Shown here: in pieces, positions 3,633 to 4,108 of the stretch
Position numbering within the stretch: the stretch's first letter is position 1
Layout of the letters: each line of letters opens with the position of its first letter
Virus record (IMG/VR): IMGVR_UViG_3300012920_000313
Location: 1 to 22,204 of that record
Source: a virus
Direction: 5' to 3' (one strand)
DNA length: 22,204 nt
Made by a program: the position numbers and the translations under genes
The notes under the pieces: model-generated
What the model saw: the letters and a program-made list of their open reading frames with translations, nothing else
Databases searched by the model: none
Told to the model about the DNA's origin: nothing

Positions 3633-3661
3633 TTGACAGAGTGGGTATAGTTGTGATAGGT
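3633..3661 (+). promoter_or_regulatory. Possible promoter (TTGACA with weak -10)
   Basis: A perfect TTGACA occurs at 3633-3638, just after the nuclease stop. The region 17 bases downstream contains TGTGATAGG, a poor -10 match. The same TTGACA-N12/13-TGTGAT layout occurs in the promoter at 1104-1132, which is the main support. It lies about 60 bases upstream of a perfect TATAAT (3695-3700). Confidence 0.35.
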
Positions 3662-3669
3662 GTTTTATT

Positions 3670-3712
3670 AGATATAAATTTAACAACGACTATCTATAAT
3701 AGATTTATATCT
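3670..3712 (+). promoter_or_regulatory. Operator-like inverted repeat around a TATAAT box
   Basis: Perfect 10-base inverted repeats AGATATAAAT (3670-3679) and ATTTATATCT (3703-3712) flank 23 bases that contain a perfect -10 box TATAAT (3695-3700). The -35 region is weak. One arm would cover the -35 zone and the other the transcription start, the usual geometry of a repressor operator. The ribbon-helix-helix gene at 3881 is the obvious candidate ligand. AT-rich arms can also arise by chance, so this is moderate evidence. Confidence 0.45.
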
Positions 3713-3731
3713 TGTAAAGATAATAGCATGA

Positions 3732-3864
3732 CAGGGTGGTTTGCGTGATGCGATCACCCTGACATTAAAAGTGGAGAGGGTATGTTCCTGGTTTTATTTC
3801 CCATGTGCTACAGCATGGTTTTCTTTTCCAGGTTTCTCCTGTGTCCTCTTCACCTTTAATGTTA
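3732..3864 (+). ncRNA. Long folded leader RNA or small RNA candidate
   Basis: Non-coding sequence with dense complementarity. A first hairpin pairs CAGGGTG (3732-3738) with CACCCTG (3755-3761); an alternative is GTGAT/ATCAC around GCG (3745-3757). Directly adjacent, 3762-3779 pairs with 3845-3862 in an 18-bp stem with one A-C mismatch and one G-T pair, extendable by two pairs. Inside are CCTGG (3787-3791) with CCAGG (3828-3832), a symmetric 9-by-9 pyrimidine-rich internal loop, and CCATG (3801-3805) with CATGG (3814-3818). The ribosome binding site of the next gene (3871-3877) lies just outside. It may be a regulatory 5' leader, a free small RNA, or a DNA-level cruciform. Confidence 0.5.
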
Positions 3865-3880
3865 ACAGAAAGGGAAGATA

Positions 3881-4048
3881 ATGGATCCAAGTAAGTGGAA
3901 ATCAGTTGCAGTTCCAATAAGTGTTTGGACTAAACTAAAAGAATTAGCCGATAGAAATGATAGATCTGTTGGCGGAACGATTTCATTTCTCACAAAAAGA
4001 GAATATGAAAAAACGGTTGACAGTAAGCAAGCTCAAAGAGTAAGCTAA
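3881..4048 (+). CDS. Ribbon-helix-helix-like DNA-binding protein
   Basis: A 55-residue protein starting MDPSKWKSVAVPISVWTKLK. The pattern of a short strand (KSVAVPIS), a helix (VWTKLKELADRND), then RSVGGTISFLTKREYEK fits the Arc/MetJ ribbon-helix-helix fold at the normal size of such regulators. It would act as a dimer binding operator DNA. It has a good AGGGAAG site, follows a folded leader and an operator-like inverted repeat, and is followed by a strong hairpin. This arrangement suggests an autoregulated early repressor or timing regulator, but the regulated targets cannot be read from the sequence. Confidence 0.65.
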   Translation: MDPSKWKSVAVPISVWTKLKELADRNDRSVGGTISFLTKREYEKTVDSKQAQRVS

Positions 4049-4070: not shown

Positions 4071-4108
4071 GAGTGAGAGTAATTTGACGACACTCATTAC
4101 TCTCACTC
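4071..4108 (+). terminator. Perfect 13-bp hairpin after the RHH gene
   Basis: GAGTGAGAGTAAT (4071-4083) and ATTACTCTCACTC (4096-4108) are perfect inverted repeats separated by 12 bases. The stem would be very stable for this AT-rich genome. It lacks a clear U-tract (TTAACAAAG follows), so it may be an attenuator, RNA-processing site or mRNA-stabilising structure rather than a simple intrinsic terminator. The next gene starts 46 bases downstream. Confidence 0.55.

Follow-up and report, generated by a model that had tools for sequence, protein, structure and literature searches.

Structured leader RNAs are already known as a kind from marine phages. The manA and wcaG RNAs are structured candidate regulatory RNAs of marine origin that lie in 5' leaders and were found in phages (PMC2864571). 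In phage T7, R1.1 is a 60-nt RNA with a 4/5 asymmetric internal loop (PMC6121014). The E. coli pnp mRNA carries a double-stranded leader structure that is degraded for autocontrol, according to a title in the reference list of PMC3997798. The putRNAs of phage HK022 are ~70 nt long, form two stem-loops and lie downstream of the early promoters (PMC9378689).

The leader described here lies in a virus record of 22,204 bases, the whole of which is called the window below. It resembles manA and wcaG (Rfam RF01745 and RF01761) in being a structured marine phage 5' leader, but those RNAs stand before metabolic genes, whereas this leader stands before an RHH-type gene, has no Rfam match and joins no named family. 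With T7 R1.1-type hairpins it shares placement between or before genes of a phage early mRNA and a structured hairpin whose internal loop is asymmetric; the structural traits of the R1.1 kind (imperfect hairpin, asymmetric loop, phage leader) are found here with transcription predicted. The loop of R1.1 is 4/5, whereas the loop here is 2/7 with an invariant pyrimidine strand, and one clade has three tandem hairpins; we treat the resemblance as a likeness and not as membership. The E. coli pnp leader is comparable in its double-stranded structure within an mRNA leader, an analogy drawn from the reference title only. As in HK022 put, one stem has an unpaired region, and in clades A and C (defined below) two stem-loops would stand in an early-type phage leader behind what is a predicted promoter. 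Unlike put, the leader has no conserved 5' hairpin and its number of hairpins varies; the A9-G35 pair and the triplex are features of put.

Results

Genomic context of the leader

The DNA polymerase of the window is 48–54% identical to those of phage 023Pt_psg01, Phage DSL-LC04 and the Pelagibacter phages HTVC023P and HTVC027P. The leader is preceded by genes for an SNF2-type helicase and an ORF of unknown function and followed by the RHH-type gene. Behind RHH come DUF7307 (Pam3 gp33-like), a Pam3 gp34-like gene, an AEP-type primase, an ORF without a Pfam match, a UvrD-type helicase, DUF6378 and DNA polymerase A. The features of the locus are listed in Table 1.

The gene behind the leader appears to be RHH-type on the basis of profile matches that are weak but consistent. 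The protein of the window alone matched MatP_C (E 0.009) and RHH_4 (E 0.06), both below the curated cut-offs. Over 15 relatives, RHH_4 was matched in 10 (best E 0.0013) and MatP_C in 9 (best E 4.5e-5). The AlphaFold model, which is of low confidence, has two helices, and structure comparison returned no useful fold match. A search for the protein in GTDB genomes and the phage collection found none.

The predicted promoter consists of TTGACA and an extended −10-like sequence. TTGACA and TTGTGATA are common to the three clades (A, B and C) that are defined below, and TTGACA stands about 220–250 nt upstream of the RHH start codon. Together, TTGACA at 3633 and GATAGG at 3655 lie about 200–230 nt upstream of the 3' end of the folded element. 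The pattern TTTGACANNNTGGNTANNNTTGTGATA matched 15 IMG/VR stretches, 14/15 of which are contigs of this lineage. L437, also matched by the pattern, has neither an RHH homologue nor a clear match to the covariance model and was taken as chance. The predicted promoter is absent from the listing of a stricter consensus scan. The element ends 7 nt before the RHH ribosome-binding site, and in every case the ribosome-binding site and the gene lie within about 20 nt 3' of it. A short stretch of the AT-rich leader hairpin, CTTGTAAAGATGA, is common to clade A (L001) and L073.

Table 1. Positions of the leader, its parts and neighbouring features in the window
Feature	Position	Strand	Remarks
Predicted promoter: TTGACA (3633–3638), 16-nt spacer, extended −10-like TGTGATAGG (GATAGG, 3655–3660)	3633–3660	+	predicted from sequence
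AT-rich leader hairpin	3664–3718	+	clade A; MFE fold of leader
5' hairpin CAGGGUG..CACCCUG	3732–3761	+	clade A; sequence not kept in clades B and C
Long imperfect hairpin	3762–3862	+	outer helix of 8 + 13 bp; 3/8 loop; stem of 5 bp; 9x9 loop; stem of 6 bp
Conserved core (covariance model R1)	3771–3853	+	58.4 bits, E 8e-16 in this record, the window being one of the sequences from which the model was built; single copy
Asymmetric internal loop, 5' strand GUU	3784–3786	+	G of N-N' pair, then UU
Asymmetric internal loop, 3' strand UUUCUCCU = UUUCUCC + N'	3833–3840	+	UUUCUC invariant in 15/15
RHH ribosome-binding site AAGGGAAG	3870–3877	+	from sequence; unpaired in predicted fold of 3664–3884
Small RHH-type gene, 55 aa	3881–4048	+	behind leader; weak profile matches
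Perfect 12-bp hairpin GAGTGAGAGTAA..TTACTCTCACTC	4071–4108		between RHH and DUF7307
Small hairpin GCC-GAAG-GGC, then AUAAACUUUAA	4117–4137		before DUF7307
Primase leader, 12-bp hairpin with loop GUAUCCUCCAA	5512–5560

Folding of the element

The initial annotation had described dense folding at 3732–3864, and on the plus strand this stretch does fold beyond chance. Its minimum free energy is −54.4 kcal/mol, compared with −30.4 ± 3.6 kcal/mol for shuffles (z −6.74), and 0/200 shuffles folded as well. Folding of the minus strand is weaker (z −5.6). When the 22 kb were scanned on both strands in 133-nt segments with a 15-nt step, the element ranked second among folding regions, and the stretch before the primase gene ranked first. 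The parts that had been described are all present. The 5' hairpin abuts the long stem without a gap; the long stem has 21 pairs (8 + 13) and one mismatch; inside it follow CCUGG/CCAGG, the 9x9 pyrimidine-rich loop and a 6-bp apex, CCATGT/GCATGG. The most conserved part, which had gone unmentioned, is the asymmetric loop that separates CCTGG/CCAGG from the long stem.

None of 4227 Rfam 15 families, among them 6S, tmRNA, riboswitches, manA and wcaG, was matched at gathering score, and the only matches were at chance level (E 0.9–6). This agrees with the earlier observation that the stretch resembles no riboswitch, tRNA or tmRNA. The only terminator-like match is a weak, small hairpin within the element's own apex. 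Two further suggestions of the initial annotation were not sustained. A 6S-like RNA had been considered, but 6S RNA is a free RNA with its own end and a large central bubble, whereas this hairpin lies between a promoter-like sequence and a ribosome-binding site and the sequence runs on into that site and the gene. A switch between alternative pairings at 3732–3761 had also been proposed; GTGAT/ATCAC is broken in 2/5 clade A members (L009 and L084), where CAGGGTG/CACCCTG is invariant. A small coding sequence was rejected as well: the frame of 25 codons that begins with ATG at 3782 is shifted in L009 and L084, and clades B and C have nothing that corresponds to it.

Distribution among relatives

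Relatives were found in IMG/VR by searches with DUF7307 and the RHH-type protein. Those with a long leader fall into three clades: A (the window, L001–L003, L009 and L084), B (L004–L008) and C (L010–L015). All three share one architecture, in which no other hairpin lies between the element and the RHH ribosome-binding site and the gene directly downstream is the same. The shared hairpin has a 13-bp outer helix, an N-N' pair, UU opposite UUUCUCY (the 2/7 loop), an inner stem of 5–6 bp that begins with CC and ends with GG, and a U-rich apex. In clade B the outer helix has 10 bp plus weaker pairs, clade C has an additional UU/UU mismatch below the N-N' pair, and clade A has a second hairpin on top of the 9x9 loop. 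The leader has two stem-loops in clade A, where they abut, two in clade C and three in clade B.

The covariance model found one convincing copy per record in 16/30 related records and none in the other 14. In every case with the flank inspected, the element lies in the RHH-gene leader. Most other relatives lack it; there, TTGACA is only 48–49 nt from the RHH start codon, or a small ORF occupies the space. L030 and L065, both without the element, have small ORFs between the promoter-like sequence and the RHH gene. The spot upstream of RHH seems to accept different inserts across relatives. Other long hairpins stand at the same place in the leaders of L073, L079, L408, L074 and L075; UUUCUC is missing from them, and their matches to the model do not exceed chance. 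In the DUF7307 tree, one starred group unites clades A and B, and a wider one, also starred, takes in clade C and L073/L079 as well and is separate from all other members. A single origin of the element with later loss is possible.

A DNA pattern for elements of the clade B/C type, which does not cover those of the clade A type, matched 30 stretches among all viral contigs, and significant model scores were obtained only in this lineage. A similar pattern of the same coverage matched 5 stretches in GTDB genome contigs, none with a significant model match. The looser DNA patterns GTTCC..GGTTTCTCC and TTTCTCC..ATGGATCC yielded mostly chance hits among the matches listed and were discarded. In the searches made, no copy of the element was found outside this lineage.

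Covariation and the conserved loop

Covariation was assessed with 11 distinct sequences and 19 pairs. Because a MAFFT alignment of the untrimmed elements misplaced the loops, a structural alignment was built from trimmed segments. Standard pairs occupy 93.8% of the cells, compared with 78.3 ± 1.8% in shuffles and 41–49% when the partner is slid by 1–3 columns, in an alignment that leans towards structure because segmentation and trimming (of the apical loops and of a U-U/U-U mismatch in clade C) were done by hand. Both sides have changed in 11/19 pairs (5.8 ± 1.4 in shuffles), 27 cells carry a two-sided change (8.4 ± 2.5 in shuffles), and the covariation score is 0.513, compared with 0.244 in shuffles. 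None of 500 shuffles reaches the paired-cell share, the changed-pair count, the changed-cell count or the covariation score. The count of further pair types is less striking (30/500 shuffles).

The wobble pairs are asymmetric: among the 11 distinct sequences, 21 cells of the plus strand are G-U and none is A-C. In clade B the model scores 68 bits on the plus strand and 22 on the minus strand. Plus-strand G-U pairs without A-C, together with the higher plus-strand score, point to the trace of a plus-strand RNA and not of a DNA hairpin. The functional RNA that the initial annotation had envisaged is strongly supported by these data, with compensatory changes in three clades.

The N-N' pair that closes the loop varies between G-C, C-G and G-U. 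UUUCUC did not change in any of the 15 sequences while the adjacent stems and the apical loops did, in a comparison of only 15 sequences from three related clades. Clade B has two further tandem hairpins upstream (L004 3446–3567, with counterparts in L005–L007). Folded alone, these have 7-nt 3' internal loops in 4/4 distinct sequences, namely UUAGCUC opposite UU or AU and CCUCCUU opposite 9–11 nt. Repetition of a 7-nt loop in the clade B hairpins suggests that this loop is the recognised part.

Other structured leaders in the replication region

The hairpin before the primase gene was found in 41 distinct sequences, with an invariant UCCUCC(A) loop, stems of 10–13 bp and compensation at nearly every stem position; the invariance is partly by selection, because the search required UCCUCC and a start region of the GGAG/GGGG type. 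A U-tract often follows the hairpin, and then UGGAG (35 sequences) or UGGGG (6 sequences), which are complementary to the loop. It looks like a terminator-type hairpin, and its UCCUCCA loop could also pair with the primase Shine-Dalgarno (SD) sequence. A simple pseudoknot would usually need more than the 7–9 nt of the 3' linker.

Before DUF7307, 27 distinct sequences have a hairpin over GAAG with the stems UACC/GGUA, GCC/GGC or GCU/AGC, followed by AUAAACUUUA, in a search whose pattern contained GAAG and AUAAACUUUA. Both the primase and the DUF7307 hairpins also occur in relatives without the RHH-leader element. Pairing of the UUUCUC loop with the DUF7307 ribosome-binding site (GAGAAA) was considered by inspection; it is available in clades B and C, yet phages that lack the element have it too, and it was set aside as uninformative. 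The loop of the hairpin between RHH and DUF7307 shares GACGACACTC with L004, where the stem differs.

Discussion

The folded stretch is, from the sequence comparison, very probably an RNA element kept by selection for a function at the RNA level. The data support selection on both shape and loop sequence, in that compensation maintains the outer helix, the inner stem and the N-N' pair, and the 2/7 loop (UU/UUUCUCY) is maintained in its sequence. The element is likely to act in cis on RHH, since the ribosome-binding site and the gene follow at once and no terminator stands after it. The best explanation, which we favour with moderate confidence, is a leader RNA of the RHH mRNA that acts in cis, is specific to this lineage of marine phages and has a candidate protein-docking loop. 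Transcription from the TTGACA promoter-like sequence would place the element in the RHH mRNA leader, as is likely from its position. Because it lies within the leader and ends just before the ribosome-binding site, it would act on its own mRNA. Docking would take place at the asymmetric pyrimidine loop, which helices hold on either side, and protein docking of some kind on this loop is somewhat favoured. The partner could be a phage or host RNA-binding protein, with the element as its operator, or else an RNase III-type nuclease that is specific for double strands. Binding or cleavage would set RHH translation or stability and possibly also affect the replication genes behind RHH. Against this explanation, the ribosome-binding site is unpaired in the predicted fold, so that no translation switch is visible, most relatives manage without the element, and the inner stem of 5–6 bp in clades B and C is short for a classical RNase III site. 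More tentatively, the leader may represent a new class in which a hairpin module carrying a pyrimidine-rich 3' internal loop of 7 nt can be repeated; each copy would dock one RNA-binding protein of phage or host, and the number of copies would vary from one in clades A and C to three in clade B.

Host RNase III might cut in or beside the asymmetric loop and so create a new 5' end of the RHH mRNA, as at the T7 early sites, and processing of this type holds a minor though appreciable share of our estimates. A phage leader, predicted to be transcribed, whose long imperfect helix contains an asymmetric internal loop would suit it, and there are precedents in T7 R1.1 (PMC6121014) and, going by the title listed in PMC3997798, in the E. 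coli pnp leader. However, the invariant UUUCUC exceeds what such a site should need, and neither the 5–6 bp inner stem of clades B and C nor the three tandem hairpins of clade B fit well. The two abutting stem-loops near the predicted promoter, the stem with an unpaired region and the hairpin with a U-tract before the primase gene in this phage family recall put, in which case the nascent leader would bind RNA polymerase and permit read-through of terminators further down the replication operon. This is unlikely, since conservation of the 5' hairpin does not extend across clades, three hairpins stand in clade B, and relatives without the element have the same operon, often with a better U-tract before primase. 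An RNA that acts in trans as a sponge or antisense RNA, with UUUCUC as its seed, might lie in the leader by chance; UUUCUC is indeed the only invariant unpaired stretch, and clade B repeats such 7-nt loops. The lack of a terminator after the element, the ribosome-binding site and gene so close behind it and the single copy per record make such an RNA improbable.

We give little weight to a metabolite riboswitch. A 5' leader in which covarying helices enclose a conserved asymmetric loop of pyrimidines would fit one, but neither a terminator nor an alternative fold that sequesters the ribosome-binding site was seen, the alternative pairing at 3732–3761 is not conserved, Rfam gave no match, and the gene behind is RHH-type and not metabolic. 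By inspection, RGGAA of each RHH ribosome-binding site can pair with UUUCU, and a neighbouring leader of the same phages has an SD-complementary loop, which would be consistent with a pseudoknot that sequesters the SD sequence. Yet at least one G-U would be required for this pairing, no sequence has the loop changed to the better complement, and in clade A a linker of only about 8 nt would have to span the 21-bp helix, making the pseudoknot very unlikely. The initial annotation had also offered a DNA cruciform at an origin. DNA can form the same hairpin, either as a cruciform or as a single-strand hairpin at an origin or recombination site, and replication genes are near. The 21 G-U against 0 A-C cells on the plus strand, the model scores of 68 and 22 bits, the absence of the element from most relatives and its single copy per record leave a DNA structure exceedingly improbable.

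Among uncultured marine relatives of the Pelagibacter phages HTVC023P and HTVC027P, the RHH leader is a clear case of selected RNA structure, and it has no counterpart in Rfam. It comes with a covariance model ready for use and a recognition loop that is predicted exactly. Together with the covarying DUF7307 and primase hairpins, it suggests that several structured leaders are spread along the replication region in these phages.
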